The position numbers and the translations under genes are program-made. From positions 1 through 32,200 of the forward strand of contig JAADHK010000037.1 of the NCBI GenBank assembly GCA_013151835.1: DNA of 32,200 bases. The letters are read 5' to 3'. The notes under the pieces were generated by a model. It ran no database searches. It was not told where the DNA came from and saw only the letters and a program-made list of their open reading frames with translations. Shown piece by piece: positions 8,229-32,198 of the stretch (its first letter is position 1; the number at the start of each line of letters is the position of its first letter). The stretch comes from Deltaproteobacteria bacterium. GTDB taxonomy: Bacteria; Desulfobacterota; Desulfobacteria; Desulfobacterales; Desulfosalsimonadaceae.

Positions 8229-10649
8229 ATGAAACGAGTCGTATGCATCAGTCTTGGAGCAAGCAAGCACAACTATGAATTTGAAACCGAATTTCTAGGC
8301 AAGGATTTTTCAGTCAAGCGGATAGGAACGGACGGAGACTTTAAAAAGGCCGAAGGACTTCTCAAGTACTGGGACCAGAAAGTCGACGCCATCGGCATCG
8401 GGAGCGTCAAATTCCCCTATACCATCGGACCCAAAAGACTTACGGAAAAACGGACCAAACGGATTGAAAGGCTGGCCGCAAAAATCAAAACCCCTGTTAC
8501 GACCGGCGCAAATCTGCGCAAGGTATCCTTTGAATGGTCCATCCGCTCCCTGCAATTCAGCATGAACAAAATCTTTTCCAATGCCCGGATACTGGTTCTG
8601 TCCGGTATGGTCAACTACAACCTGGCCAGTATCCTTTCCGATTATACCGAAAACCTGACCTTTGCCGACCCGATTCTCGAACACGGAATCCCCAAGTTCC
8701 TGAACTCCATAAAAGAGCTGGAGTTGTACGCCAAGGGCATCCATGAGGTTTTAAATTACGCGCCCGGCAAAAGGATGGCCACGTCAACGGTTCCCATCCA
8801 GATATGGAACCGGTTTATCCTGCGCAAGGCCATGCAGAAAAGCAGCATGATAATGGTCCCGTACCATGATTTTTACAATTACTTTAATGTAGCCGGCCTT
8901 GAGGAACTAGGGCATAAGACGATAATAACATCAACGGTATATGATGATCGCGTAAGATTTCTCAAGAAACGGGGGGTCGACATGATAATAGACAATACCC
9001 CCAAGCTTTTCGAACGCGTGGTGGGGATCAACGTTATCGAGGCGATGATCATCGCCGGCCTGGAAAAAAAGAAAGACAAAATCACAAACGACGAACTGAT
9101 GGATATCATCTGCGATCAATACCCGGAACCGAGAATTATCTATCCCCAGGGGGATAAACGGAGGATAAACCGGTTCGCCTTTGTTATCCATCCCCTGTCC
9201 CAGGACGATTTTAAAAAAGATCCGACCATCGGCATGCTCACCAAGGTGCCCGGAGTCGTGGACGCGGTTGAAAAGGCCATGGCCTACTCTCCTCCGTTTA
9301 TCTATTCCAAGATTTCCGGTGTTAAATCGCCTCTGGGCGTGGAAGCCGAAGGCTGGCTCATTTCCGTTGGCGGCACCCCGAAACAGATGCTGTCCCATTC
9401 GCCCGAATTCACCTACAAACGACTCCTTCAGGCGGCCCGCATGGCCAAGCGTCTCGGGGCTCAGATCATGGGGCTCGGGGCATTTACAAAGGTAGTTGGG
9501 GACGCCGGGGTCACGGTCTCACGCAAGGCCGAGATACCCATTACCACCGGGAACAGCTACAGCGCATCCGGCGCCCTGTGGGCTGCGGCAGACGCAGTTC
9601 GGCGCATGGGCATTCTGAAAATCGAAAAAGGAAAAATCGTCGATGCAAAGGCAATGGTCGTGGGCTCGACGGGTTCCATCGGTGCGGTCTGCTCAAGGCT
9701 TCTGGCCCTGGTAGTAAACGACCTGTACCTGGTCGGCCGAAATCCGGCCAAGCTCATGGCCTTAAGGAAGTCCATTGAGCAGGAGGCGCCCAACTGCAAA
9801 ATCACGCTTTCAACTTATGCGGACCGGTATCTCGGTGATATGGACATGATTGTTACCACCACTTCCGGCGCGGGAAAGAAGATACTGGATATCACGAAAG
9901 TGAAACCCGGCTGTGTTATAACCGACGTGGCCCGGCCCCTGGACCTTTCGGCCGAGGATGTTGCCAAGCGGCCGGACGTTTTAGTCGTTGAGTCCGGAGA
10001 AATCCTGATGCCCGGGGAAGTCAAGATGAAGGATATCGGGCTTCCCAAAAACGTGGCCTACGCCTGCCTTGCCGAAACAATCGTCCTGGCCCTTGAGGGT
10101 AAATTCGAGGTCTTTACCGTCGGGCGGGAAATCGAGTGGGAAAAGGTAAAGGAGATATACAAAATAGGTATCAAGCACGGCATGAAGCTGGCCGCGATTT
10201 CCGGCCAGAAAGGGGTCTACACTGACGAAGATATCCTGAAGGTCAGGGACCTTGCATTAAAGGCGCTGAAAAGTGACAAGTGGCAAAAAACCGGGGATAA
10301 AAAAAGCAAGGCCGGGAAAGCAAAGGCAAAAACGCCTGAACCCCAAAAACCGGCAGCCAAAAAAACAGATGCGCCAAAGGTTCCAAAAAAGAAAGCACCT
10401 GTAAAAAAGACCGTGAAAAAGAGCAAAATAAAAGATACGGACAGCAAAAAGACACTTCCCGAGCCGAAAAAAGAGGCGCCGACACCCGAAAAAAAGGCTA
10501 AACCCAAGACAAACGTAAAAAAGAAGGCCGCCCCCGCAAAGACGCCAAAGACCGGAGGCACAAAAACAAAAACCAAGGCGAAAAAGAAAGCGACCCCAGC
10601 CAGGACCGAGGCAAAGACAAAAGATAAACCCGCGACTACGGGAAAGTGA
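8229..10649 (+). CDS. Acyl-ACP reductase-like dehydrogenase with extra N-terminal domain and basic C-terminal tail
   Basis: The 806-residue protein starts at 8229 behind GGAGGAG; the frame is open upstream to 8127. It has three parts. Residues 1-about 314 (MKRVVCISLGASKHNYEFET, then FSVKRIGTDGDFKKA) form a separate domain reminiscent of stand-alone proteins of anaerobic Firmicutes annotated, doubtfully, as quinate 5-dehydrogenase. Residues about 315-683 align by eye with cyanobacterial long-chain acyl-ACP reductase (AAR): the FAFVIHPLSQDDF start, LGAFTKVVGD, TTGNSYSASGA, the nucleotide motif GSTGSIG (479-485), and AYACLAETIVLALEG. In the last, Cys613 matches the AAR cysteine that carries the acyl thioester. 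Residues about 684-806 are Lys/Ala/Pro/Thr-rich, like histone H1. Reduction of an acyl thioester to an aldehyde is plausible but inferred. No aldehyde decarbonylase or wax synthase is nearby. Confidence 0.75.
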   Translation: MKRVVCISLGASKHNYEFETEFLGKDFSVKRIGTDGDFKKAEGLLKYWDQKVDAIGIGSVKFPYTIGPKRLTEKRTKRIERLAAKIKTPVTTGANLRKVSFEWSIRSLQFSMNKIFSNARILVLSGMVNYNLASILSDYTENLTFADPILEHGIPKFLNSIKELELYAKGIHEVLNYAPGKRMATSTVPIQIWNRFILRKAMQKSSMIMVPYHDFYNYFNVAGLEELGHKTIITSTVYDDRVRFLKKRGVDMIIDNTPKLFERVVGINVIEAMIIAGLEKKKDKITNDELMDIICDQYPEPRIIYPQGDKRRINRFAFVIHPLSQDDFKKDPTIGMLTKVPGVVDAVEKAMAYSPPFIYSKISGVKSPLGVEAEGWLISVGGTPKQMLSHSPEFTYKRLLQAARMAKRLGAQIMGLGAFTKVVGDAGVTVSRKAEIPITTGNSYSASGALWAAADAVRRMGILKIEKGKIVDAKAMVVGSTGSIGAVCSRLLALVVNDLYLVGRNPAKLMALRKSIEQEAPNCKITLSTYADRYLGDMDMIVTTTSGAGKKILDITKVKPGCVITDVARPLDLSAEDVAKRPDVLVVESGEILMPGEVKMKDIGLPKNVAYACLAETIVLALEGKFEVFTVGREIEWEKVKEIYKIGIKHGMKLAAISGQKGVYTDEDILKVRDLALKALKSDKWQKTGDKKSKAGKAKAKTPEPQKPAAKKTDAPKVPKKKAPVKKTVKKSKIKDTDSKKTLPEPKKEAPTPEKKAKPKTNVKKKAAPAKTPKTGGTKTKTKAKKKATPARTEAKTKDKPATTGK

Positions 10650-11888: not shown

Positions 11889-12045
11889 GATCTCGTAAAA
11901 AGTCAGGCAACCCGGTAAAGATGGCTAAGCAGAAAGTTCCATATACAAGGCGTAGTGGTGTCGCGAAAGCGGAGGTATACATATAGTATTCCGAGCATTT
12001 CGCGACCCGCTACAACGCAGTAGAGGACTTTTTACGAGTCCGTCA
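11889..12045. repeat. Palindromic element, family 1, inverted complete copy
   Basis: This is the reverse complement of the copy at 10733-10895 with scattered substitutions. Terminal sequences are tctcgtaaaaagtc (11891-11904) and gactttttacgagtccgtca (12026-12045). The right end overlaps the thioesterase gene: its last codons and TAA stop are written in the element's terminal sequence. Together with 10733-10895 it forms a 1.3-kb inverted-repeat-bounded segment. Confidence 0.88.
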
Positions 12046-12442
12046 ATCCGGGCAGAGCCTCTTTTTTCCGATACACCGTCCCCTGGAACACGGCGACAAG
12101 GTCGCCGCCGTCTTCGGTCACGTCGATCCGGTAAGTGGCGAGTTTTGAATTTCTGGAGACCTCCCAGGCCCGGGCGGTCAACACCCCCGCTGACACTGCC
12201 TTTAAAAAAGAGATGTCGGCATTAATGGCAAGGGCGACGGTTCCGTGGGAATTTGAGGCTACCGCAAAGGCCAGATCGGCAAGTGAGAATACCGCGCCGC
12301 CATGGACAATGCCCACGCCGTTTAAATGCCTGTCCTTAATTTCAAGTCTTGCCACGGCAGTTCCCAGGCCTGCTTCAAGCAGCTCGATCCCGACGTATTC
12401 GGCAAATTGATCTTTTTTGAAAAACTCTTTTATTTTATCCAT
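12032..12442 (-). CDS. PaaI-like hotdog-fold acyl-CoA thioesterase
   Basis: The 136-residue protein is a single hotdog domain of the PaaI/YdiI class, which hydrolyses acyl- or aryl-CoA thioesters as a tetramer. Characteristic are NGVGIVHGGAVFSLADLAFA (HGG motif before the central helix, with Asp as catalytic acid), LAINADISFLKAVSAGVLTA and the strand TYRIDVTEDGGDLVAVFQGT. The final residues and stop codon (…LTDS-TAA) are encoded by the end of a palindromic repeat, so the original C-terminus may have been altered by its arrival. The ATG at 12442 has only a distant AAAAGG. No catabolic operon surrounds it, so the substrate is unknown. Confidence 0.88.
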   Translation of the reverse strand: MDKIKEFFKKDQFAEYVGIELLEAGLGTAVARLEIKDRHLNGVGIVHGGAVFSLADLAFAVASNSHGTVALAINADISFLKAVSAGVLTARAWEVSRNSKLATYRIDVTEDGGDLVAVFQGTVYRKKEALPGLTDS

Positions 12443-18568: not shown

Positions 18569-19597
18569 TCAGTCTTCTCCCTGGTCCGTATCTTCTTCAG
18601 GCGGCACAAAATTTTCCATTTTCATGCCGAGTGAAAGCCCCATCTCGGTTAAAAGTTCCTTAATTTCAGTTAACGATTTTCTGCCGAAATTTTTGGTTTT
18701 CAACATTTCGGGCTCTGTTCTCCGGACTAGCTGGTAAATTTTTTGAATATTTGCATTCCGAAGACAATTGGCGCTCCGGACTGACAATTCGAGTTCATCC
18801 ACGTCCAGATAGAGATTTTCATTAAAACTCTTGGCCGCATCCTCATCCTCGGACGCCTCTGGCGGGCTCGGCTCATTTTCATCATTAAAGTTAATAAAGC
18901 CGGCCATCTGCTCTTTTAATATCTTGGCGGCAAAGGCAATGGAGTCCTCCGGACTGACGGACCCATCCGTCCATACTTCCAGGGTCAGCTTGTCATGATC
19001 GGTGCGCTGGCCGACACGGGCGTTGCCCACAAGATAATTTACACGGCGAATGGGTGAAAAAATGGCGTCAATGGAAAGAGTTCCCACCGGAGCCTCCGGG
19101 TCCTTGTTGTTCTCGGCAAGTGAATATCCCTTTCCGGCATGCACCGTCATCGTCATCTGAAGTCTGGCGCCCTCGGCAAGCGTCGCAACATGCTGATCCG
19201 GATTCAGTACCGTAACGTGGCCGTCCTTGCTGACAATATCTCCGGCCGTGACAACACCTTCTTTATCCGAGTCGATCTCAATTGTCTGCGGCTTGGCGTC
19301 ATCCGCCGAGAGTCGCACCTTTTTCAAGTTTAATATAATTTCCGAAACATCTTCCAGTACACCAGGTACTGTATCAAATTCGTGCATGACGCCTTCGATC
19401 TTGACCGAGACAATGGCAACTCCATAAAGAGACGACAGGATAATCCGCCTGATGGAGTTTCCGATGGTAATACCAAATCCGCGTTCAAGGGGTTCCCATA
19501 CGAACTTGCCGTATGTCGGAGTCTGGCTCGCGACCTGGACCTTGCCCGGTCTTATCATTTCACGCCAGTTCATGTATGTCAGTTCATTCAAAGACAT
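18569..19597 (-). CDS. rpoA: RNA polymerase alpha subunit
   Basis: The 342-residue alpha subunit has an N-terminal assembly and dimerisation domain ([40 protein letters not shown]) and an acidic linker ([18 protein letters not shown]). Its C-terminal helix-hairpin-helix domain ([20 protein letters not shown], then [20 protein letters not shown]) includes the Arg of VRSANCL that contacts UP elements. The ATG at 19597 is followed by a second in-frame start, [12 protein letters not shown], 24 nt further, closer to the usual N-terminus; GGAG lies ahead of the first. It is separated from rpsD by a 67-nt spacer with a tandem repeat. Confidence 0.98.
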
Positions 19598-19620
19598 CTC
19601 TTTATTCTCCAGGTTTTTTT

Positions 19621-19646
19621 ACCCCGAATTCATACCCTGAATTCAT
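19621..19646. repeat. Tandem 13-bp duplication in the rpsD-rpoA spacer
   Basis: accccgaattcat (19621-19633) is followed immediately by accctgaattcat (19634-19646), two copies with one difference, immediately downstream of the rpsD coding end in the direction of transcription. It may affect mRNA structure or be a neutral slippage duplication. Confidence 0.6.
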
Positions 19647-19664
19647 ATAAGGGGCCGTTTATGC

Positions 19665-20294
19665 CTACTTGGAATAAAATTCCACGATCTGGTTTTCAGC
19701 AACAGGCATGGTAACATCATCCCTAACCGGCAGGGTCTTCACAACCCCTTTCATTGCATCTTTATCTAGCTCCAGCCATTGGGGAAGGCTCCTGCGTACA
19801 ACAGCCTCCATGGCGTCTAAAATAACCTGGACCTTTTTACTCTTTTCCTTCAACTCAATAACATCACCGGCGGATACCTGAAAGGAAGGGATATTAACCT
19901 TTTTACCATTAATGGTAAAATGATTATGCTTTACGAGCTGCCTTGCCTGTGAACGTGAATTGGCAAACCCCATGCGGAAAGCCACATTATCAAGCCGGCG
20001 CTCCAGCATAACCAGGAGGTTGGTACCCGTAACCCCCTTTTTCTGCTCCGAGCGTGCGAAAAAGAGTCGAAACTGATCTTCGGACAGGCCATACAGACGT
20101 TTTACCTTCTGTTTTTCACGAAGCTGAAGGCCGTATTCCGAAATTTTTCCGCTCCTGCGCTGGCCGTGCTGGCCCGGGGGATAACTGCGGCGGTCAAAGG
20201 CGCACTTATCTGAAAAACAGCGATCGCCCTTAAGATACAACTTTATATTTTCACGCCGGCATAGCCGGCAAACAGAACCTCGATACCGTGACAA
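19665..20294 (-). CDS. rpsD: 30S ribosomal protein S4 (zinc-binding form), TTG start
   Basis: The 209-residue S4, a primary 16S rRNA binder and assembly initiator, begins MSRYRGSVCRLCRREN. The N-terminal zinc site is intact (C9, C12, C26, C31). The S4 RNA-binding motif follows (RRLDNVAFRMGFANSRSQAR, then QLVKHNHFTINGKKVNIPSF). The initiation codon is TTG at 20294 with AAGGAGG 5 nt upstream and no usable in-frame ATG nearby. S4 often represses its operon by binding mRNA; no pseudoknot was worked out here. Confidence 0.96.
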   Translation of the reverse strand: MSRYRGSVCRLCRRENIKLYLKGDRCFSDKCAFDRRSYPPGQHGQRRSGKISEYGLQLREKQKVKRLYGLSEDQFRLFFARSEQKKGVTGTNLLVMLERRLDNVAFRMGFANSRSQARQLVKHNHFTINGKKVNIPSFQVSAGDVIELKEKSKKVQVILDAMEAVVRRSLPQWLELDKDAMKGVVKTLPVRDDVTMPVAENQIVEFYSK

Positions 20295-20373
20295 TTGGGC
20301 CTCCTTTTACTTTGCCATCACAATTTCTACTTTCAACGAAATTATCAAATATATATCAGGCGCAAAAGAGCAA

Positions 20374-20766
20374 TTAAACTCTGCGGCGCTTGGGCGGCTT
20401 ACATCCATTATGAGGCACCGGAGTTATATCCTTTATCATAACAACGGTCAGGCCTGTGGCCGCAAGAGCCTTGATTGCGGATTCCCGACCCGGCCCCGGA
20501 CCCTTTACATAGACCTCCACATTTTTCAGGCCGTGATCCATCGCACGTTTAGCCGCCGTTTCGGAAGCGAGCTGTGCCGCAAAAGGAGTGCTCTTGCGGG
20601 ACCCCTTAAAACCGTTCATGCCGGCGGAAGACCATGATATAACGTTGCCGGTCGGATCGGTAATCGTAACGATCGTGTTATTGAAGGTTGACTGGATATG
20701 AACAACCCCGTTTAATATATTTTTCCTGACCTTTTTTTTAGATCGTGTTACTTTTCTCTTTGCCAT
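20374..20766 (-). CDS. rpsK: 30S ribosomal protein S11
   Basis: The 130-residue S11 is full length: basic N-terminus, [60 protein letters not shown] and the C-terminal [17 protein letters not shown]. It forms part of the 30S platform near the mRNA exit. The ATG at 20766 has AGAGG upstream. It lies 32 nt after rpsM. Confidence 0.98.
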
Positions 20767-20798
20767 AAAATTAGCCTCTGCTTTGCGGTCAATTGCTT

Positions 20799-21182
20799 CT
20801 ACTTCTTGCTGACACCGCCCTTCTTTTTAACGGCGGTGCGGCGGGGGCCCTTTCGCGTCCTTGCGTTTGTGGAGGTCCGCTGCCCGCGGACCGGAAGCGA
20901 ACGGCGATGGCGAAGCCCACGGTAACACCCGAGATCCATCAATCTCTTAATATTCATTGCGATCAGGGTTCGCAAATCTCCCTCAACCCTGTGCTTGCCG
21001 TCAAGCACCTTACGGATATTATTTACCTCTGAATCCGAAAGTTCATCGGTCTTGAGGTTTTCGTCGATACCAAGTTCCGCGAGTATACTCTTAGACGCGG
21101 AAAGGCCAATCCCGTAAATATACGTGAGACCTATGACAACACGCTTACCTTTCGGTAGATCGACTCCAGCAATTCTAGCCAA
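20799..21182 (-). CDS. rpsM: 30S ribosomal protein S13, TTG start
   Basis: The 127-residue S13 starts [20 protein letters not shown] and contains the helix-hairpin-helix [20 protein letters not shown] and the basic head-contacting tail ([20 protein letters not shown], then [14 protein letters not shown]). It bridges the 30S head to the 50S subunit and P-site tRNA. The start is TTG at 21182 with AAGGAGG 6 nt upstream; codons before it carry no ATG back to the rpmJ stop. Confidence 0.97.
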
Positions 21183-21195
21183 TGCCTGCCTCCTT

Positions 21196-21309
21196 TTATC
21201 CCTGCCGCTGTTTATGCCGCTTGTTTTTGCAGATCACCCGAACCACGCCTTTGCGCTTAACTATCTTGCAATCGCGGCAAATTTTCTTTACCGAAGCTCT
21301 TACCTTCAT
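21196..21309 (-). CDS. rpmJ: 50S ribosomal protein L36 (zinc-binding form)
   Basis: This 37-residue gene reads [20 protein letters not shown] and continues [17 protein letters not shown]. The zinc ligands C11, C14, C27 and H32 are all present. The ATG at 21309 has AAGGGG upstream. It lies between infA (15 nt) and rpsM (13 nt), the usual alpha-operon position. Confidence 0.97.
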
Positions 21310-21324
21310 GATCGTAACCCCTTG

Positions 21325-21543
21325 CTATTTAGTCCTGTAGGTGATGCGTCCCCGTGTAAGATCATAGGGTGAGAGTTCAACGGTTACGGAATCACCCGGC
21401 AGGATTTTTATAAAATGCATCCTCATCTTGCCTGAAAGATGCGCAAGCACCTGATGTTTGTTCTCCAGTTCAACCTTGAACATGGCATTCGGCAATGTTT
21501 CAAGCACCGTGCCTAAAACTTTTATCGCCTCTTCCTTGGCCAT
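21325..21543 (-). CDS. infA: Translation initiation factor IF-1
   Basis: The 72-residue protein starts [20 protein letters not shown] and is a single OB-fold ([20 protein letters not shown], then [20 protein letters not shown]). IF-1 blocks the A site during 30S initiation. The start at 21543 is chosen over an open extension to 21582 because it matches the family N-terminus and has GGGGAAGAG in front. It follows secY by 50 nt with no adk or map between. Confidence 0.97.
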
Positions 21544-21593
21544 CTCTTCCCCCGTATCCTGTTTCAAAAAAAGCATCGCCACGCCGGCAATTA

Positions 21594-22913
21594 TTATCGC
21601 TTGCGCTTACCCGACGCCGCAGTTAAAAAACCTTCATAATTTCTTGTAATCAAATGCGATTCTATCTGCGATACAGTATCTATCGCAACCCCTACCACGA
21701 TTAAAAGGGCCGTTCCCCCGAAATAAAAGGGGACATGAAAGCGGGTCATCATTATCGATGGGAGAACGCACACCGCAGATACATAAACAGCCCCGCCCAG
21801 GGTTATACGGGTCAGAACCTTGTCAATATAATCAGAGGTCCGTTTACCCGGCCTGATACCAGGTATATAGCCGCCGTATTTCTTCATGTTGTCAGCCACA
21901 TCAGCCGGATTAAAAACAATGGCCGTGTAGAAAAAACAGAAAAAGAAAATAAATGCAACATAGAGAAGCTCATAAATTATAGACCCGGGCTTTAAGGCCG
22001 CAGAAACCATCTGCATTGCAGGCACATCCTTTAAAAAACTCGCCAGGGTCGCAGGAAACATAATCAGGGATGATGCGAAAATAGGCGGAATAACGCCGGC
22101 TGTATTAATCTTTAACGGCAGGTGCGTGCTCTGGCCACCGTACATCTTCCTGCCCACGACCCGCTTGGCATATTGAACCGGGATTCTGCGCTGCCCCTGC
22201 TCCATGAAAATAATAAACGCCACCACCCCCACCATGAGAACCAGCAGGATAAGTATCCCGAATATTCCCATCTCCCCGGTTGAAACCATCCGGAACGTAT
22301 TGCCTATGGCCTGGGGCAACCTGGCCACGATACCCGCAAAAATAATTAGCGAGATCCCGTTTCCAATCCCCCGCTCGCTGATCTGCTCGCCGAGCCACAT
22401 GATAAAGGCTGTTCCTGCCGTAAGCGTAATCATGGTCATTAAACGAAAGGACCAGCCGGGATGCAGGACAATGGCAACACTCCCGGGCCCGCTCATGTTC
22501 TCGAGCCCAATACTTATGCCGAATCCCTGGATAAGACTTAATACCACCGTGCCGTAACGTGTATATTGTGTGATCTTGTTCCGTCCCTGTTCCCCCTCCT
22601 TTGAAAGACGTTCAAGATGGGGAATAACCACGGTCAGGAGCTGTAAAATAATTGACGCGCTGATGTAGGGCATGATGCCCAGGGCAAAAACCGAAAGCCG
22701 CAGCAACGCACCGCCGGAAAACATATCGAAAATGCCGAAAATAGTATTCTGGTGACGGGCGAAAAAAGCGGCAAGCGCATCGCCGTTCACCCCGGGCGTG
22801 GGTATATGAGCACCCACCCGATAAATGGCCAGCAACATAAACGTAAAAATAAGTCTTCGCTTAAGTTCTGGAATCTTTAGTATATTGGAAACACCGGCAC
22901 CTGTTACCGCCAT
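21594..22913 (-). CDS. secY: Preprotein translocase subunit SecY
   Basis: The 439-residue protein is the ten-helix channel of the Sec translocon. Visible are the N-terminal [20 protein letters not shown], the plug region [20 protein letters not shown], the C4/C5 region with cytosolic basic loops ([20 protein letters not shown]) and [20 protein letters not shown]. The ATG is 2 nt after the rplO TGA (TGATTATG), so translation is coupled. It works with SecE, SecG and SecA, which are encoded elsewhere. Confidence 0.98.
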
Positions 22914-22915
22914 AA

Positions 22916-23356
22916 TCAGATAACCTCCACCTTTCCGCCGGCTGCGATTATCTTTTCCTTCGCGCCCGTGCTTACGGCCGCAAGCCTGACTTCGACTTCT
23001 ATACCGACTTCACCCTGTCCCAGCAGCTTGACCGGTCCTGCTCCGTGCTTGACCAACCCTTTATCCGCCAGGGCGGCAGCGTCCACAACCGCGCCGTTTT
23101 CAAAGCGGTTAAGGTCACGGACATTAACGATTTCATAGATCTTCTTAAAAATATTGGTAAACCCGCGCTTGGGCAGGCGCCTGTGAATAGGCATCTGCCC
23201 GCCTTCGAACCCGGGCCTCACACCACCGCCGGAACGGCTGCCGTGCCCTTTTGAGCCCCGGCCGGCGGTCTTCCCCGTGCCGGACGCAACTCCTCTTCCC
23301 AGGCGCTTTCTTGCTTTTTTAGATCCCTCGGCGGGTGAAAGCTCATGCAGTCTCAT
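22916..23356 (-). CDS. rplO: 50S ribosomal protein L15
   Basis: The 146-residue L15 starts [20 protein letters not shown]. The Gly/Arg-rich N-terminal extension ([20 protein letters not shown], then [20 protein letters not shown]) penetrates the 50S core. The start at 23356 is chosen over an upstream open extension because of GGAGG and the family N-terminus. The rpmD end overlaps this start by 14 nt. Confidence 0.97.
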
Positions 23357-23537
23357 TTTTTTCCTCCACGCGCACAAGATGACAAACCTTGGCGGCCATT
23401 CCGCGAATGGACTGGGTATCCTCCAGCTCAACGGTTCTATTCATTTTAGTAAGCCCCATGCCGCGAAGTACGCGTCTGTGTTTCTCGGGACGGCCATTCA
23501 TGCTTTTTACCAGTGTAATTTTTAATACGCCAGCCAT
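23343..23537 (-). CDS. rpmD: 50S ribosomal protein L30
   Basis: The 64-residue L30 reads MAGVLKITLVKSMNGRPEKH and continues RRVLRGMGLTKMNRTVELED. It is an alpha/beta protein binding 23S rRNA near 5S rRNA. The ATG at 23537 follows the rpsE stop by 14 nt. Its 3' end overlaps rplO by 14 nt. Confidence 0.96.
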   Translation of the reverse strand: MAGVLKITLVKSMNGRPEKHRRVLRGMGLTKMNRTVELEDTQSIRGMAAKVCHLVRVEEKNETA

Positions 23538-23551
23538 GTCACCCGGATTCC

Positions 23552-24049
23552 TTATGAAATTTGTTCGACCGAAAGGCCCCGCTTGGCCGCGACCATCTCG
23601 CGGCTCTGTAGCTGGGCAAGGCCGTCAAGGGTTGCCTTAACAACATTATGAGGATTGTGTGTCCCTATGCACTTTGTCAAAATATTCTCGATTCCGACCG
23701 CTTCAAGCACGGCTCTTACCGCTCCGCCGGCGATAACACCGGTACCCTTTCCGGCCGGCTTTAAAAATACGCGGCCGGCGCCATACTTTCCGATCACCTG
23801 GTAGGGAATGGAACCATCTAAAAGAGGGACATCGATCATGCTTTTCTTGGCTTTCTCAACTCCCTTGCGTATGGCCTCCGGAACCTCGTGGGCCTTGCCC
23901 AGGCCGTAACCGACCCGACCCTCGCCATCTCCGACAACGACAATGGCGGAAAAACTGAACCTGCGGCCACCCTTTACAACCTTGGCAACTCTGTTTATGT
24001 GAACAACCTTGTCGATGAATAGATTGTCATCTGTTTCCTTCGCAAACAA
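23552..24049 (-). CDS. rpsE: 30S ribosomal protein S5, TTG start
   Basis: The 165-residue S5 has the N-terminal dsRBD-like domain ([20 protein letters not shown], then [20 protein letters not shown]) and the C-terminal fold ([36 protein letters not shown]). It acts in translational accuracy and mRNA unwinding at the entry channel. The start is TTG at 24049 with AAGGAGG 7 nt upstream; the first in-frame ATG lies well inside the conserved domain, so the TTG is well supported. Confidence 0.97.
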
Positions 24050-24072
24050 AGGATAGCCTCCTTAAATAATGT

Positions 24073-24441
24073 TTAAAAATCGAGTCCCGTTTTCCGTGCA
24101 CCATCCGACAACGCCTTGACACGGCCATGATAGAGAAATCCATTTCTGTCAAATACAACAGATTTTATCCCTTTTTCCATGGCGCGCTCTCCAACGAGCT
24201 TCCCCACAAAGGCGGCGGCCGCTTTCTTGTCGTCAAACGCTCCATGCGTCCGTGCATCTTTTTCCAGAGTACAGGCTGAAGCCATCGTCTGACCGGTGGC
24301 ATCATCGATCACCTGGGCGTATATATGCCTTGCGCTCCTGAAAACCGACAGCCTCGGTCGGGCGCCGGAGCCCATGACTTTTTTGCGGATACGTTTTTTC
24401 CGCTTAAACCGCATCTCTTTTCTTATATTGGTTGAGCCCAT
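24073..24441 (-). CDS. rplR: 50S ribosomal protein L18
   Basis: The 122-residue L18, which binds 5S rRNA, has an N-terminal basic segment ([20 protein letters not shown]) and the core [20 protein letters not shown], ending [15 protein letters not shown]. The start at 24441 is preferred over an ATG six codons upstream because GAGG is 8 nt before it. Confidence 0.96.
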
Positions 24442-24473
24442 ATTCTTTTCCTCAAACATTTTAAAAACAATTA

Positions 24474-25007
24474 CTATTTGGCGGTCTTTCCGGCCTTGCG
24501 GGCAACATATTCCTCGGCGTACTTGATCCCCTTACCCTTATAGGGTTCCGGAGGCCTGAATGCGCGGATAGTGGATGCGGCAAAACCGAGCTTCTCCTTG
24601 TCTATACCCAATAATTTGACCCCGGGTTTTTCAATCACCGCAGAAACCCCTTCGGGGAGCTTAAAATTTATGGAATGTGAATACCCTAGATTAAATTCTA
24701 TTGAATCACCTTTAAGTTCTGCCTTATACCCTATGCCGTTTATTTCGAGTACGCGTTCAAAGCCGGCGCTCACGCCCTGGATCATATTGGCGATATGCGC
24801 ACGCGTAGTTCCCCACAACGCATTGGTCTTTTTATCCTTTTTGGCGATACTGACGATTACCTGTCCGTCATCTATAGCAATGTTTACATCCGGATGAAAC
24901 GTTCGGCAAAGAACGCCCTTCGCCCCTTTGATCGTTATATTACGACCGTCAAGCTTTACCTCGACCTTTTCCGGAATAGGCACCGGTTTTTTCCCAATGC
25001 GAGACAT
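24474..25007 (-). CDS. rplF: 50S ribosomal protein L6
   Basis: The 177-residue L6 starts [20 protein letters not shown] and has the two homologous alpha/beta domains of the family; the conserved C-terminal [20 protein letters not shown] is intact. It sits near the factor-binding centre of the 50S subunit. The ATG follows GGAG with good spacing. Confidence 0.98.
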
Positions 25008-25022
25008 ATATAAAACTCCTTA

Positions 25023-25421
25023 TTACCAGATATTGCAGAGGATTTCTCCGCCTGCATTCTCTTTTCCGGCCTGTTTATCAGTCATGAGACCCTTGGAAGT
25101 AGACAGAATAGCGATGCCCAGCCCGTTTAAAACCGGCTTGATGTCCCTGCCTTTAACGTACACACGGCGACTGGGCTTGCTGACCCGCTCAATTCCGTAA
25201 ATTACGTGCCGCCCCTCACCGTCGTATTTGAGATAAACGCGTAATATGCCCTGTTTTGCGTCCTGCATAAACTTGCTGCCGTTTATATAGCCTTCACGTT
25301 TCATAACGTCGGCAACAGCAGCCTTCAACCTTGAGCCGGGGATATCCACGCTCTTGTGTTTTGCCTTTCCGGCATTGCGGATACGCGTCAGCATATCTGC
25401 GAGTGGATCACTCATCGACAT
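25023..25421 (-). CDS. rpsH: 30S ribosomal protein S8
   Basis: The 132-residue S8 starts MSMSDPLADMLTRIRNAGKA and ends with the conserved STSKGLMTDKQAGKENAGGE. S8 binds helix 21 of 16S rRNA and in E. coli represses the spc operon at rplE. The ATG at 25421 has GGAG 6 nt upstream. An unusually long gap of 227 nt separates it from rpsN and contains a palindromic element. Confidence 0.97.
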   Translation of the reverse strand: MSMSDPLADMLTRIRNAGKAKHKSVDIPGSRLKAAVADVMKREGYINGSKFMQDAKQGILRVYLKYDGEGRHVIYGIERVSKPSRRVYVKGRDIKPVLNGLGIAILSTSKGLMTDKQAGKENAGGEILCNIW

Positions 25422-25524
25422 GGTTTACTCCATTGTACAAATAATTAGTATCGGGTTAAGTAAAATTCACAAAAAAAATCTTAATATTTTAACTAACAGC
25501 TCATTACCCACTCAAAAGCCGGCG

Positions 25525-25651
25525 GATGGCTTTGTAAAAAGCTCCGTATGCAAGGCGTGCGAGTCGGGAAAGGACGAAGGCGTACTTTTTGTACGTTGAG
25601 TTCTTTCACGGCGAGCGCAACGCCGCAGACGGACTTTTTATGGAGTCATCA
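25525..25651. repeat. Palindromic element, family 4, inside the spc operon
   Basis: This 127-bp inverted-repeat element lies between rpsN and rpsH. Its ends gatggctttgtaaaaagctc (25525 on) and gactttttatggagtcatca (to 25651) are complementary in most positions, resembling family 1 ends. The arms pair almost throughout (caaggcgtgcgag with cgagcgcaacgcc; gaaaggac with gttctttc; cgtac-ttttt-gtacg as the tip). Its right end overlaps the TGA stop of rpsN. In the operon mRNA it should form a long hairpin, a potential processing or attenuation site. Confidence 0.85.
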
Positions 25652-25834
25652 CCAGCTTGACTTTGTAACTCCCGGAAGAAGCCCCTCCGAGGCCATGGAA
25701 CGGAAGCATATCCGGCAAACGCCAAACTTGCGCATATAAGCGCGGGGTCTCCCGCATATCGGGCAGCGGTTATAACTCCTGACCGCAAATTTCGGCTTTT
25801 CTTTCGCCTTTATACGAAGCGCTTTTTTTGCCAA
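25649..25834 (-). CDS. rpsN: 30S ribosomal protein S14, type Z (zinc-binding), TTG start
   Basis: The 61-residue S14 is the short zinc form, with ligands C24, C27, C40 and C43 ([20 protein letters not shown]) and the conserved [13 protein letters not shown] end. It assembles into the 30S head. The start is TTG at 25834 with TAGGAGG 5 nt upstream; the SD overlaps the rplE stop. Its TGA stop is shared with the end of a palindromic element. Confidence 0.96.
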
Positions 25835-25843
25835 CTCAACCTC

Positions 25844-26380
25844 CTAGTTGCGAAACGGCATACCCATCAATTTCAGCAATTCCTTGCCTTCATTATTGTT
25901 CTTTGCCGAGGTTACAATAGTAATGTTTAATCCCTTGATAGATTCGACTTTGTCGTAGTCAATCTCGGGGAAAATTATATGTTCCTTGATTCCAAGAGTG
26001 TAATTCCCGTAACCATCAAAGGCCTTGCCGGATATTCCGCGAAAATCTCGAACGCGGGGCAGGGCGATATTAACAAGCCTTCCAAAAAAATCGTACATCC
26101 TCTTCCGTCGCAGGGTCACCATACACCCAATGGGCATGCCCTCCCTGAGTTTAAAGGCCGCCACCGATTTCTTCGCACGGGTGATGACCGGAGCCTGGCC
26201 GGCGATCAGCATCATTTCAGCTTTTGCGGAATCAAGGATCTTGATATTGTTAATCGCCTCACCGAGCCCCATGTTTAAGACAATCTTTTCAAGACGGGGG
26301 ACTTGGTGAAAATTCGTATAATTAAACGTCCCCTTGAGCTTGGCGACGACTTCCTGTTCGTATAACGTTTTCATCGACAT
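25844..26380 (-). CDS. rplE: 50S ribosomal protein L5
   Basis: The 178-residue L5 starts [20 protein letters not shown] and has [40 protein letters not shown] and [21 protein letters not shown]5 binds 5S rRNA and contacts the 30S head via bridge B1b. The ATG at 26380 has GGAGG 7 nt upstream; an ATG two codons later is possible. Confidence 0.98.
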
Positions 26381-26410
26381 TGATTTTCCTCCGGTATGCA
26401 GCCTTTATAA

Positions 26411-26740
26411 CTACGCATCCATGTTTTCATTGCACTTAGGGCACACCCGTACTTTCTTGCCATCTTCTATGGAAAGCATACGTACCCGCACCGGGGCGAC
26501 GCATTTATTGCAGACCACCATCACGTTCGACCAGTGAATCATGGCCTCGCCCTCGACGATGCCGCCCTGGCGATTATTCGTACTCGGACGCTGGTGGCGC
26601 TTGACCATATTGACGTGCTCCACCATGACCCGCTGCTTTTTGTGATCCACCCGGATCACCTTGCCGATCTTGCCATTGTCCTTGCCTGCAAGGACCTTTA
26701 CCTTATCATCTTTTTTTATTCGACATTTATACTTATTCAT
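26411..26740 (-). CDS. rplX: 50S ribosomal protein L24
   Basis: The 109-residue L24 has the KOW motif (DKVKVLAGKDNGKIGKVIRV) and a C-terminal CxxC pair (VVCNKC and RVCPKC), a zinc site found in many non-enteric L24 proteins. It initiates 50S assembly. The ATG at 26740 is chosen over the one at 26746, which leaves only 2 nt after AAAGG. Confidence 0.96.
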   Translation of the reverse strand: MNKYKCRIKKDDKVKVLAGKDNGKIGKVIRVDHKKQRVMVEHVNMVKRHQRPSTNNRQGGIVEGEAMIHWSNVMVVCNKCVAPVRVRMLSIEDGKKVRVCPKCNENMDA

Positions 26741-26756
26741 GATCATGACCTTTAAG

Positions 26757-27125
26757 TTATAATACCTCGGGCGCCAGGGAAATAATCTTCATGAACCGCC
26801 GGGCACGAAGTTCCCGGGCAACGGGTCCAAAAATACGTGTGCCGATGGGCTCGCTGTTCGGGTTTATCAATACGGCAGAATTGTCATCAAAACGGATATA
26901 CGTGCCATCGGGCCGCCGGATCTCTTTTTTGGTCCTGACCACGACCGCCTTGAGGATATCCCCTTTTTTAACCTTTGAATTCGGTATCGCCTCTTTGACG
27001 GATACGACGATGATATCGCCTACTCCGGCATAACGCCTCCGGGTACCACCGAGAACCTTGATACAGTATACAATCTTTGCGCCCGAATTATCCGCAACGG
27101 ACAATCGTGTTTCCGACTGAATCAT
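26757..27125 (-). CDS. rplN: 50S ribosomal protein L14
   Basis: The 122-residue L14 is canonical: [40 protein letters not shown] and the C-terminal [20 protein letters not shown]. It forms intersubunit bridges and contacts the silencing factor RsfS. It lies 24 nt after rpsQ. Confidence 0.98.
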
Positions 27126-27149
27126 TTTCCTGCGTCCTTATATATTAAA

Positions 27150-27407
27150 TCAAACCGCTTTTTCGATTATTGAACTCACGCGCCACCGTTTTCTGCGACT
27201 CAGCGGACGGGACTCGGCGATGACAACACGATCCCCGATGCCGCACTCGTTTTGCGCATCATGGGCGGCAAATTTAGTCCTTCGGCTCACATATTTCTTG
27301 TAAACCGGATGGCGTACAAGCCGCTTTACCAGCACAGTAACGGTTTTATCCATTTTATTGCTTAAAACCGTCCCCACCAATTGTCTTTTCATCCCACGTT
27401 TTTTCAT
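27150..27407 (-). CDS. rpsQ: 30S ribosomal protein S17
   Basis: The 85-residue OB-fold protein S17 includes KRQLVGTVLSNKMDKTVTVL and ECGIGDRVVIAESRPLSRRK. It binds the 5' domain of 16S rRNA early in assembly. The ATG at 27407 has GCGGGA upstream; an internal ATG five codons on (MKRQLVG) is a possible alternative. Confidence 0.96.
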   Translation of the reverse strand: MKKRGMKRQLVGTVLSNKMDKTVTVLVKRLVRHPVYKKYVSRRTKFAAHDAQNECGIGDRVVIAESRPLSRRKRWRVSSIIEKAV

Positions 27408-27422
27408 GATATCCCGCTAAAT

Positions 27423-27620
27423 CTAAATGATATTCTGTTGGTTCTGACGACGGATAGTCTTCACCCGGGCAATGTCCCGTCGGACCTGCTTCAACCGGCT
27501 GGAATTCTCAAGCTGCCCGGTCTTATGCTGAAACCTCAGATTAAAATAGGTTTCCACCAGATCCACAACCTTTGAGTCCATCTCTTCTTTGGTTAATGCA
27601 CGAATCTCTTTTGCCTCCAT
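27423..27620 (-). CDS. rpmC: 50S ribosomal protein L29
   Basis: The 65-residue, two-helix L29 includes LTKEEMDSKVVDLVETYFNL and RLKQVRRDIARVKTIRRQ. It lies at the peptide exit, where SRP and trigger factor dock. Its ATG overlaps the rplP TAA by one base (TAATG), with GGAGG upstream. Confidence 0.97.
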   Translation of the reverse strand: MEAKEIRALTKEEMDSKVVDLVETYFNLRFQHKTGQLENSSRLKQVRRDIARVKTIRRQNQQNII

Positions 27621-28033
27621 TATCCCAGCCTCCTTTCAACAAACTTCGTTTTAACCGGAAGCTTGTGGGCCGCAAGACGGAAAGCCTCACGGGCGAGGTC
27701 ACGATCGACACCCTCCATTTCGTAGAGAATACGGCCCGGTTTGATTACCGCCACCCAGGCTTCTGGAGTCCCCTTGCCTTTTCCCATTCTCACCTCCGCC
27801 GGCTTCTTGGAAATCGGTTTGTCGGGAAATATTCTGATCCACAGTTTTCCGCCCCTCTTGACCTTGCGGGTCATGGCCACACGGGCAGCTTCAATCTGCC
27901 TCGAGCTGATCCACCCGCACTCCACAGCCTGCAGGCCGAAATCACCGAAGTTCAAGGTCGAGCCGCGATAAGCCTTCCCTCTCATCTTCCCTTTTTGCTT
28001 TTTTCTATATTTAACTTTTTTGGGACTCAGCAT
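27620..28033 (-). CDS. rplP: 50S ribosomal protein L16
   Basis: The 137-residue L16 includes [40 protein letters not shown] and [20 protein letters not shown]. It organises the A-site region of the 50S subunit. The ATG follows GGAG with 6 nt spacing, 16 nt after rpsC. Confidence 0.98.
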
Positions 28034-28049
28034 AGTTTACTCCTGTAAA

Positions 28050-28703
28050 TCACTTCCGGTCAGACGAGAGTGGGTCATTACTTAATATCTCACCTTTAAA
28101 TACATATACCTTTACTCCGATAGCCCCGTAGGTTGTTCGGGCCACGGTATAGCCATAATCGATTTCTGCCCGGAGGGTATGCAGAGGGATCCGCCCTTCC
28201 TTATACCATTCGGTTCGGGCCATCTCGGCTCCGCCCAGTCGACCGGAGCAGATAATCTTGATCCCCTCGGCTCCGAATCTCATGGCCGTGGACACGCACC
28301 TTTTCATGGCGCGGCGAAAAGCGATCCTGCGGATGAGCTGGTTGGCGACATTCTCGGCCACAAGCTGGGCATCCAGTTCAGGCCTGCGCACTTCCTGAAT
28401 ATCCACCATGACTTCTCTGGATAAAAGCTTTCCAAGATCTTTTTTAAGCAACTCTATCTCGGAGCCCTTCTTGCCGATGATAATGCCCGGCCGGGCCGTG
28501 TATATCCTGATCTTTATCCGCGAGGAAGAGCGTTCAATCTCTATGCGCGAAACACCGGCGTGGTTGAGCTTCTTTTTCAGAAAGATCCTGATTTTATGAT
28601 CTTCATATACGTAATTAGGATAATCTTTCCCGGCAAACCATCTGGAACTCCATGTACGGTTGATACCAAGCCGCATCCCTATCGGATTAACTTTCTGACC
28701 CAA
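28050..28703 (-). CDS. rpsC: 30S ribosomal protein S3, TTG start
   Basis: The 217-residue S3 starts [20 protein letters not shown], with the KH domain ([20 protein letters not shown]) and C-terminal domain ([20 protein letters not shown]). S3 lines the mRNA entry channel. The start is TTG at 28703 with AAGGAGG 8 nt upstream; the family N-terminus aligns exactly to this codon. Confidence 0.97.
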
Positions 28704-28724
28704 ACCCGTAACCTCCTTAAAAGT

Positions 28725-29063
28725 TTATATCCCTGCTTCGCCTACAACAACAGTAATATGGCTGGTCCGCTTAAGTATTCTTGATGACCGGCCTCTGGCC
28801 CTGGCCCTGAATCGCTTGAGCATGGGGCCCTCGTTCACGACTATATTTCGGATAACAAGTGAATCTACATCCACATCAGGGTGTTGATCCGCATTTGCTA
28901 TCGCGGAATTAAGTATCTTGGCAACCATCGCCGCCGCTTTCTGGGGCATGAACTTCAGACGGTTCATTCCCATCTCCACGGGTTGCCCCTTGACCGCACC
29001 AACGATCTTCCGGACTTTCTGAGGCGATATGCGCATGTATTTAGCAGTCGCATTGACTTCCAT
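28725..29063 (-). CDS. rplV: 50S ribosomal protein L22
   Basis: The 112-residue L22 includes [20 protein letters not shown], the [20 protein letters not shown] segment and the basic hairpin ([20 protein letters not shown]) that lines the exit tunnel and influences macrolide response. The ATG follows AAGGAAG. Confidence 0.98.
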
Positions 29064-29161
29064 ATCCGCTTCCTTAGGCTGTTACTTTATTATCAACTTA
29101 AATAGCATATTGACTGAGTTCGTAATAAATGCGCCGTGCACAGACTTCTTCTCTGGCGCCA

Positions 29162-29440
29162 TTACTTCATTTTCGACCTTTTATCTCCGGCATGCCCGTA
29201 AAATGTACGTGTGGGTGAAAACTCACCCAACTTGTGGCCGACCATATTCTCGCTCACAAACACCGGGATAAACTTTCTTCCGTTATGTACACCCAATGTA
29301 AGGCCGACCATTTCCGGAATAATTGTCGAACGCCTGGACCATGTCTTTATGACTTTGTTGCTCCTTGCCGACTGGGCTGCATTGACCTTTTCAAAGAGTT
29401 TGTCGTCTATGAAAGGTCCTTTTTTTAACGATCGCGGCAT
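29162..29440 (-). CDS. rpsS: 30S ribosomal protein S19
   Basis: The 92-residue S19 includes [40 protein letters not shown] and [20 protein letters not shown]. It forms the 30S head with S13. The ATG follows GGAG. A 98-nt spacer without a visible gene separates it from rplV. Confidence 0.98.
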
Positions 29441-29486
29441 ACTTCGCTCCTGATATTAAATAGCTGTTTACTTATAGCCTTATGTT

Positions 29487-30320
29487 CTACTTCCTTTTTG
29501 TCCGCCTTTTTACAATCAGGCGGTCGCTTGCCTTCTTTTTCTTGCGTGTCCTAAATCCCTTGGCGGGCATACCCCAGGGTGAGCAGGGATGACGGCCGCC
29601 CGATGATCTTCCTTCGCCGCCGCCCATGGGGTGGTCGACCGGGTTCATAACAACACCACGTACATGGGGTCGCCTGCCGAGATACCTTTTCCTGCCGGCC
29701 TTTCCAAGGGAAATATTGCCGTGATCCGTATTCCCCACCTGGCCTATGGTTGCCCGGCAGTTGATAAGAACCATTCGCATCTCTGAAGATGGCAACTTGA
29801 TCGTTGCATAAGTCCCCTCTTTTGCCATGAGCTGCGCAAAACCTCCGGCGCTTTTTACCATCTGCCCCCCGCGTCCCTCCCGCAATTCAATATTATGAAT
29901 ATGCGTGCCCAGAGGGATATTAATAAGCGGCAGACAGTTTCCCGGCCGGATTTCAGCCTCGGGTCCTGACATAACGGAATCACCGACCGCAAGCTTTGCA
30001 GGACAGAGGATATAGCGTTTCTCGCCGTCTGCATAATTAAGCAAAGCGATGCGCGCCGAGCGGTTGGGATCGTATTCGATGGCGGCAACTATTGCAGGAA
30101 CCCCGTCCTTGTTCCGCTTAAAATCGATTATGCGTAAAAACCGCTTATTGCCCCCACCTCTATGGCGGCATGTTATCCGGCCATTTGCATTTCTGCCCCC
30201 GGACTTTTTAATTATTTTCACGAGGCTTTTTTCCGGCTCTTTTTTTGTGACTTCTTCATAGGTCGAATAAGTCTGAGCGCGGCGCCCGTGTGATGTTGGT
30301 TTTACTTTTTTTATCGCCAT
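29487..30320 (-). CDS. rplB: 50S ribosomal protein L2
   Basis: The 277-residue L2 is complete, with [40 protein letters not shown] (the conserved His near the peptidyl-transferase centre) and the C-terminal [20 protein letters not shown]. It is required for subunit association and peptide bond formation. The ATG follows GGAG. Confidence 0.98.
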
Positions 30321-30335
30321 TGATTTGCTCCGCTG

Positions 30336-30623
30336 CTATACGCCTTCAAAAAATTTAATCCGCTGACCCGGCATGAGTGTCACAACCGCCTTTTTCCAAT
30401 CGCGGCGATGCCCCAGTATCCGCCCGCGCCGTTTGACCTTTCCCTTTACCTGCATGGTCCGAACCGCCTTGACCTTAACGGAAAATATCGATTCAACGGC
30501 CTTTTTAATTTCAACCCTGTTGGCCCTTCTGTCGACTTCCAGGCTGACCTGGTTGTTTTCTTCCTTCTGGATATTGGTCTTTTCGGTGTCGACCGGACCT
30601 TTGATGATATTATGATAACTCAT
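30336..30623 (-). CDS. rplW: 50S ribosomal protein L23
   Basis: The 95-residue L23 includes [40 protein letters not shown] and [20 protein letters not shown]. It forms the trigger-factor and SRP docking site at the exit tunnel. The ATG overlaps the rplD TGA (ATGA), indicating coupling. Confidence 0.97.
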
Positions 30624-31243
30624 GCGGCCAGCCTCCCTTCTATCCCTTCTATAGCTCCTTCGAGCAAAACAAGGTTATGATGATCGAGTATGTCATAAAC
30701 GTTAAGGCCCGCAACGTAAAGAATCTTTACGCCGGGGATGTTTCTGGCCGAAAGTTCGAGCTTTTTATCTTTGGCCGGTATGATGATCAAGGGTTTTTTC
30801 ATGTCAAGGCCGTTAAGTATATTCACCATCGTCCGGGTCTTGATTTCATCGAGATCGATCTTGTCGAGAACGATAAGTTCGTTATCCATGAGCTTTGAGG
30901 AAAGGGCCATTTTAAGGGCCAGGCGCCGTTTCTTCTTGGGAATATTAAAAGCATACGAACGCGGCTCGGGCCCGAAGGTCACGCCTCCACCCCTGCGCAG
31001 CGGACTCTTGATATCCCCGGCCCTTGCCCGGCCAGTACCTTTCTGACGAAAAAGTTTGGCGGTGCTCCCTGCAACATCCGAACGTCTTCTTACCGACGCC
31101 GTTCCACTCCTGCGTGAAGCGCGCTGCATGCGTACGACCTCGTGAAGAACACTTTTTTTCACCGGCACATTAAAGATTTCGTCAACCAGCTCACGTTCCG
31201 AAACCCTGTCTCCTGCTATATTTTTGACTTCAACGACAGCCAT
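30620..31243 (-). CDS. rplD: 50S ribosomal protein L4
   Basis: The 207-residue L4 includes [20 protein letters not shown] and [20 protein letters not shown] (the tunnel loop), plus [20 protein letters not shown]. In E. coli L4 represses the S10 operon. Of two adjacent ATGs (31246, 31243) the second has better spacing (6 nt) from AGAGG. Both overlap the rplC TGA. Confidence 0.97.
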
Positions 31244-31869
31244 CATATTCCTCTTATTTTTATTTCCAAGCGACCATTTACAGGTCCGGGCACGGCCCCT
31301 TTGACAAGAATCACATTTTGTTCAGGCCGGATATCCACAACCTGAAGATTTCTAATGGTGTTTTTCGTGTTTCCATAGCGTCCGGGGAGTTTTCTTCCTT
31401 TAAAGACCTTGCCAGGCCAGGCACACTGCCCGATGGAACCGGGTTCCCTGTACGAATGGCTGCCATGAGTCTTATTGCCGAGTTTAAACCCGTGCCGTTT
31501 GGTTACGCCGGAAAACCCGCGACCCTTGCTGTTGCCGCTCACATCGATCCGATCTCCAACGGAAAAGATATCAAGGGTAACGGCCTGCCCGGCTGTAAAT
31601 TCCTCCGGATTGTTCACCTTAAATTCCTTAAGATGGGCAAAGCATGCTTCCCCGGCCTTTTCAAAATGACCGGCCAACGGCTTATTCACCCGATGCTTTT
31701 TCTTTTCGGAAAAGCCAAGCTGCAAAGCGTTGTACCCGTCATTTGCAAGCGTCTTTATCTGGGTCACGATGCACGGCCCCGCTTCTATGACGGTAACCGG
31801 AATATAGCTGCCGTCGTTTGCAAACAGGCTTGTCATGCCCAGTTTTTTACCTAAAATACCTTTACACAT
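31243..31869 (-). CDS. rplC: 50S ribosomal protein L3
   Basis: The 208-residue L3 starts MCKGILGKKLGMTSLFANDG and includes the central loop region (GNSKGRGFSGVTKRHGFKLG, GSHSYREPGSIGQCAWPGKV) reaching the peptidyl-transferase centre. The ATG at 31869 matches the family N-terminus and has GGTGA 5 nt upstream. A GTG at 31878 in the same frame is an alternative that adds three residues. Confidence 0.96.
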   Translation of the reverse strand: MCKGILGKKLGMTSLFANDGSYIPVTVIEAGPCIVTQIKTLANDGYNALQLGFSEKKKHRVNKPLAGHFEKAGEACFAHLKEFKVNNPEEFTAGQAVTLDIFSVGDRIDVSGNSKGRGFSGVTKRHGFKLGNKTHGSHSYREPGSIGQCAWPGKVFKGRKLPGRYGNTKNTIRNLQVVDIRPEQNVILVKGAVPGPVNGRLEIKIRGI

Positions 31870-31886
31870 ATTAGTCACCGACTTTT

Positions 31887-32198
31887 CTACAATTTAATAT
31901 CAACGTCAACGCCGGGCGAAAGATCGAGTTTCATAAGGGCATCCACGGTCTGCTGGGTCGGGTCTTGAATATCCAGCAGGCGTTTGTGAGTGCGCACTTC
32001 AAACTGCTCCCTCGATTTCTTGTTCACATGCGGCGATCTTAACACCGTATACTTGTTTATTCGGGTTGGCAGGGGAATGGGGCCAACTATTCTGGCGCCT
32101 GTTTTCCTGGCCGTATCGACAATGTCCTTGACCGACTGGTCCAACAGCTTGTGATCATAAGCCCTGAGCCTAATTCGGATTTTTGTATTTGATATCAT
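31887..32198 (-). CDS. rpsJ: 30S ribosomal protein S10
   Basis: The 103-residue S10/NusE includes [40 protein letters not shown] and [20 protein letters not shown]. It is part of the 30S head and, as NusE, of antitermination complexes. The ATG at 32198 is two bases from the window end, so the ribosome site and operon promoter or leader are outside. Confidence 0.98.

Follow-up and report, generated by a model that had tools for sequence, protein, structure and literature searches.

A two-domain acyl-ACP reductase-like protein as a probable source of wax ester alcohol in Desulfobacterales

A gene of a Desulfobacterales bacterium, an organism of the sulfate-reducing type, encodes an 806-aa protein in which a separate N-terminal domain precedes an acyl-ACP reductase (AAR) domain carrying the catalytic cysteine. 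As judged from sequence and gene linkage, this two-domain protein probably reduces fatty acyl-CoA or acyl-ACP to the aldehyde that gives rise to the alcohol of wax esters. Its linkage to wax ester genes across relatives suggests an undescribed way in which bacteria form the fatty alcohol moiety of storage wax; the routes given by a wax ester study of 2025 (PMC11948995) do not include an AAR-type one. The gene lies in a 32,200-nt stretch of DNA (hereafter the window) from a 3.3 Mb genome that is 97.6% complete. Full-length orthologues in other genomes share 70-77% identity with the protein, its nearest relatives in the collection searched being Desulfobacterales MAGs. The following features were assigned:

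8229..10649, + strand: two-domain acyl reductase gene, 806 aa (ORF with ATG and GGAGG ribosome site; full-length orthologues)
8229..9164, + strand: N-terminal domain, residues 1-312, degenerate AAR-like (predicted model, structural matches)
8601..8621, + strand: SGMVNYN (125-131), site of the lost GxxGxxG in the N-terminal domain (hhalign register against AAR GSTGSIG)
9030..9032, + strand: Asn268, putative counterpart of the catalytic Cys in the N-terminal domain (alignment by eye via a shared helix with a conserved Glu)
9165..10277, + strand: AAR domain, residues 313-683 (NCBIfam, PDB sequence matches, Foldseek)
9663..9683, + strand: GSTGSIG (479-485), predicted NAD(P)H-binding motif (equals GXXGXXG of AAR)
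10065..10067, + strand: Cys613 (AYACLAE), predicted acyl-thioester cysteine (aligned with Cys294 of S. elongatus AAR, 6jzq)
10278..10646, + strand: Lys/Ala/Pro-rich tail, residues 684-806 (translation)

Residues 313-683 form an AAR-like domain of the acyl-ACP reductase superfamily, in which fold, cysteine and GxxGxxG motif are all present. The best NCBIfam match of residues 315-683 is the PigE model (E 4.3e-52), aligned over the first 364 of its 837 positions only, while TIGR04058 (acyl-ACP reductase) matches residues 352-653 (E 2.3e-18) with 66.6 bits against a curated cut-off of 449.7, which is short of the equivalog level. By sequence, the domain matches PDB chains 4ppm (1.2e-25) and 6jzq (1e-13). 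In Foldseek, the full-length predicted model retrieves AAR 6jzy (E 6.6e-20), the structural match of the C-terminal domain to cyanobacterial AAR having 23-24% identity. The GxTGxxG pattern is invariant across the family alignment, and the serine of the C294S mutant chain 6jzz falls in the exact column of Cys613. The initial annotation had aligned residues 315-683 by eye with cyanobacterial AAR and placed Cys613 at the acyl-thioester position; the agreement of the NCBIfam, PDB and Foldseek matches, together with an alignment that puts Cys613 on the active-site Cys column, bears out both points, and the AAR motifs it quoted are found in the ORF translation. Glutamyl-tRNA reductase was rejected as an identity (21.8 versus 429 bits).

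In AAR, the acyl group is transferred to the cysteine and then reduced to the aldehyde by NADPH, which binds at GXXGXXG (PMC9743570). By homology, Cys613 would be acylated by acyl-CoA or acyl-ACP, and NAD(P)H at GSTGSIG would reduce the thioester with release of a fatty aldehyde. The aldehyde- or alcohol-forming role proposed earlier fits in this Desulfobacterales bacterium. The domain is also that of the cyanobacterial alkane pathway, where the AAR aldehyde is handed to a decarbonylase, and alkane or olefin synthesis would start from the same chemistry. We regard this as very improbable: aldehyde decarbonylase (ADO, PF11266), already noted as lacking nearby, was detected neither near the gene nor anywhere in its own genome and 59 relatives (0 of 60; the control Synechococcus elongatus was positive), and the enzyme requires oxygen. 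The cyanobacterial alkane pathway was rejected on the lack of ADO in these 60 genomes.

The separate domain described earlier in front of the AAR part is real, comprises about 312 residues and is conserved among full-length relatives. No Pfam family matches it in the window's copy, stray weak hits alone were seen across 65 members, and a PDB sequence search with its profile gave no credible match. A model built with the 65 sequences is confident (pLDDT 88.7). Its top structural match is AAR 6jzq (Z 13.7 over 255 of 312 residues, rmsd 4.3), followed by the carmabin TAD 9e50 (Z 13.4; TAD range 12.8-13.4) and then by malic enzymes (Z 10.2). Profile alignment with hhalign pairs PVTTG and SGMVNYN of the N-terminal domain with PITTG and GSTGSIG, respectively, of the AAR domain, so that all three motif glycines are lost; in these columns S125 is found in 64 and G126 in all 65 sequences. 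Because the P value is weak (0.004, or 0.024 with other profiles, as the best of about 20 comparisons) and a reversed control reached 0.12, the alignment counts as support, not proof, for homology. At the presumed position of the catalytic cysteine, the Asn268 column holds Asn in 33 and Ser in 22 of the 65 sequences. As the glycines are lost and the fold is nearest to AAR, the N-terminal domain is, on the predicted model, most likely a second AAR domain that has degenerated, losing both the nucleotide motif and the Cys. An internal duplication whose first copy is without catalysis is the simplest reading of the two-domain chain, and this copy would probably act as a non-catalytic partner shaping the path of the aldehyde or carrier.

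Alternatively, the N-terminal domain might be an ordinary amino-acid-dehydrogenase-like fold with a ligand of its own, for instance a second nucleotide, an idea compatible with the wax ester role that we consider rather doubtful. Malic enzyme and glutamate dehydrogenase do share its layout (Z 8.6-10.2), and the invariant Asp147 occupies a position suitable for a ribose-binding acid. However, AAR and the carmabin TAD score distinctly higher (Z 12.8-13.7) over the entire domain, the register found by hhalign is consistent with the AAR structural match, and the nucleotide-motif glycines are gone. The last point, together with the fold nearest to AAR, also speaks against a second canonical nucleotide site, which the initial annotation had contemplated. 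Likewise, its comparison of this domain with quinate 5-dehydrogenase could not be upheld, and a quinate/shikimate dehydrogenase identity was rejected: the N-terminal domain matched no Pfam family, and the similarity to PF01488 (shikimate/quinate dehydrogenase; 23.2 bits against a gathering cut-off of 24.3) was located at residues 468-575, within the Rossmann region of the AAR part.

A few relatives encode homologues of the N-terminal domain as stand-alone proteins (31-34% identity; L040:9503-10459, L041:2125-3126 and L028:1504-2454), and one of these belongs to a genome that lacks the fused reductase. As seen by eye, they adjoin a kinase-like gene and, in two cases, a cysteinyl-tRNA synthetase gene as well.

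Behind the AAR domain, the basic tail, which was absent from the initial annotation, is modelled with very low confidence; the three closest orthologues and homologues from betaproteobacteria have similar basic tails.

With respect to gene context, the window's copy is an orphan. No lipid gene adjoins it, and its neighbours in the window (a response regulator, TPM, TrkA/TrkH, MMPL, adenine deaminase and ribosomal genes) offer no functional link; nor do those of its three closest orthologues. Since its clade consists of four sequences without conserved neighbours, the role of the window's copy itself is read from its paralogues. A part in anti-phage defence was rejected, PADLOC giving no match. 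Within the window, a small hotdog-thioesterase-like ORF was recognized by eye near the reductase gene (12032-12442, - strand), and an ordinary operon of ribosomal proteins, secY and rpoA occupies 18569-32198 (- strand).

A contig scan confirmed 523 stretches encoding a relative, and the best 80 of these 523 come from Desulfobacterales and Beta- and Gammaproteobacteria. The two-domain architecture is treated as an unnamed family of these groups. Its distribution is patchy, as a search with the N-terminal domain across the phylum found one further carrier only among 247 genomes. The window's genome has three full-length members, a number also found in many positive relatives.

All-against-all BLAST served to cluster the neighbouring genes, and Pfam to name the clusters. 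Among 79 loci, an iron alcohol dehydrogenase (Fe-ADH) was a neighbour in 25, WS/DGAT (PF03007, PF06974) in 22, PhaR in 18 and phasin in 15; Fe-ADH fused to an SCP2 lipid-carrier domain and patatin, alpha/beta hydrolase, ferredoxin and acyl-CoA ligase families were also represented. The neighbouring WS/DGAT mostly lies less than 600 bp from the reductase gene. Fe-ADH adjoins the reductase gene in beta- and gammaproteobacteria as well, and an acyl-CoA-ligase-like gene is situated immediately upstream of it in three gammaproteobacterial loci. In one relative (G008), about 17 kb of contiguous sequence carry acyl-CoA ligase (ACS), two WS/DGAT, phasin, PhaR, Fe-ADH-SCP2, ferredoxin, AAR and a further ACS gene. 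The window's genome (G000) has WS/DGAT, phasin and two PhaR-like genes together on contig C96, this WS/DGAT scoring 374 bits against TIGR02946 (cut-off 310).

The pairing with WS/DGAT extends to whole genomes. Among 60 Desulfobacterales relatives, 24 have both reductase and WS/DGAT, one the reductase only, one WS/DGAT only and 34 neither (Fisher P 1.7e-14, an indicative value that ignores relatedness, shared ancestry explaining some of the association). The reductase-only genome (G005) is 77% complete and has Fe-ADH beside the reductase; the WS/DGAT-only genome (G002) is 60% complete. Within a single genus (g9), both genes are present in G008, G013 and G021 and neither in G017, G024 and G027. 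Additionally, in 78 gammaproteobacterial relatives WS/DGAT was detected in 28 of 28 reductase carriers versus 32 of 50 non-carriers (P 1.3e-4, kinship ignored), and carriers chosen by locus, a few of which recur among these 78, had it in 22 of 22 cases. WS/DGAT was undetected in one reductase-positive genome (G132, 8% contaminated), and nine genomes of the phylum have WS/DGAT without the reductase N-terminal domain. Some relatives may possess another fatty-alcohol enzyme besides the reductase: eight of those with WS/DGAT also encode an HMG-CoA-reductase-like protein, possibly FcrA, which is not found in the window's genome, and the latter has a distant Male-sterility-family SDR.

From this linkage, the fatty aldehyde would probably be turned into fatty alcohol by the linked Fe-ADH(-SCP2) protein, WS/DGAT would join the alcohol with a second acyl-CoA to form a wax ester, and the product would be kept in granules associated with phasin and PhaR, to which the basic tail of the window's copy might conceivably aid association. 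WS/DGAT is also able to make triacylglycerol, and alkyl ether lipids occur in Desulfobacterales. Instead of wax ester, the aldehyde or alcohol might supply ether lipids, either plasmalogens or alkyl glycerol ethers, with WS/DGAT making triacylglycerol in the same granules. This is unlikely in our estimation: the first chemistry would be identical and a glycerol kinase gene lies by the reductase gene in several relatives, but the tight reductase-WS/DGAT pairing in distant lineages and their direct adjacency favour wax esters, and no ether-lipid gene was noticed in the survey of neighbours. The reaction could also run in reverse, with the breakdown of alkanes, alcohols or wax supplying a fatty aldehyde that is oxidised to acyl-CoA. 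Hydrolases and patatins within the same loci would suit such a function, and several relatives are hydrocarbon degraders; however, the presence of WS/DGAT, phasin and PhaR in these clusters speaks for synthesis and storage, and known AARs are reductases, making the oxidative direction still less likely than the ether-lipid route.

The protein was compared with its closest known systems. Cyanobacterial AAR (TIGR04058; 6jzq/6jzy) shares the fold of the C-terminal domain, the GxxGxxG motif and the catalytic Cys, whereas the 806-aa protein has an extra N-terminal AAR-like domain and a tail, and the family is linked with WS/DGAT and Fe-ADH instead of ADO. PigE and TamH, of prodigiosin and tambjamine synthesis, similarly fuse an AAR-type thioester reductase domain to another domain (PMC8341465, PMC9594044); there, the partner is a class III PLP aminotransferase, while here it is AAR-like and Pfam detects no aminotransferase in the chain. 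The carmabin TAD, second-best structural match of the N-terminal domain, is a peptide synthetase domain solved with NAD(H), and its identity to the N-terminal domain is 10-11%; no paper on it was found in the open-access literature. The 2025 wax ester study describes FarA, AcrB, Acr1 together with an unknown aldehyde reductase, and a new enzyme, FcrA, which accounts for about 25% of the predicted producers of wax esters; FcrA is of the HMG-CoA-reductase type, Acr1 of the SDR type, and FarA and AcrB were searched with Male-sterility/SDR profiles (PMC11948995). These enzymes resemble the present family in the proposed step from acyl-CoA to fatty alcohol and in their pairing with WS/DGAT, but none is described as AAR-type (PMC11948995). 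With WS/DGAT and Fe-ADH as its neighbours, a reductase of the AAR type would add a route to wax ester alcohol in Desulfobacterales and Beta- and Gammaproteobacteria, and the same linkage would name Fe-ADH-SCP2 as a candidate for the fatty aldehyde reductase missing in wax ester makers. In the open-access literature, to which our search was confined, no earlier report of wax esters with AAR or in sulfate reducers was found, which does not by itself prove novelty.

The catalytic cysteine is not universal in the family. Residue 613 is Cys in 77, Gly in 18 and Ser in 13 of 108 aligned sequences, and under midpoint rooting the Gly sequences and the Ser sequences form one clade each, the two clades being sisters (support 1.0, 1.0 and 0.996). 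Wherever a tandem pair is completely covered, the Gly copy comes second, after a Cys copy; Ser copies are separate. Both groups retain the nucleotide motif and are altered at about 12 further sites where the Cys forms hardly vary. Such Cys-less paralogues were found in Desulfobacterales, and the gammaproteobacterial copies looked at all have Cys. Neither they, nor the three paralogues per genome, nor the WS/DGAT link figured in the initial annotation. The Cys-less sister chains may be aldehyde reductases or non-catalytic partners. Tentatively, doubled AAR chains might constitute an AAR-type route to wax ester alcohol in which, in Desulfobacterales, the Cys chain works with a dedicated Gly or Ser sister that carries out a thiol-free conversion of aldehyde to alcohol or controls or channels the first step. 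The Ser paralogues are a natural counterpart of the engineered C294S variant (6jzz) and would provide a direct test of the AAR fold without its thiol.

Several further genes were observed around the reductase and its associates. The Fe-ADH with a C-terminal SCP2 lipid-carrier domain that adjoins the reductase in Desulfobacterales is exemplified by L063:5606-7438 (+ strand), and the window's genome has a homologue of this type (G000:C77:50924-52528). A small 4Fe-4S ferredoxin gene lies about 170 bp or less from the reductase in nine loci (for instance L075:9561-9839), and in about 12 loci the reductase gene is followed by genes for a ParA-like ATPase (L032:11027-11761) and a protein of about 129 aa without an assigned family (L032:10615-11112). 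On contig C96 of the window's genome, two Get3/ArsA-like ATPases are encoded between PhaR and WS/DGAT (L144:6791-8929); they are nearest to the BagA and BagB models, under the cut-offs, and a similar pair occupies the same place in G012. The latter genome also encodes a stand-alone AAR-like protein of 386 aa with GCWSE at the active site (G012:C6:392619-393635, L035), whose gene adjoins, by eye, AMP-ligase-like and ACP-like genes and represents a different AAR-type cluster.
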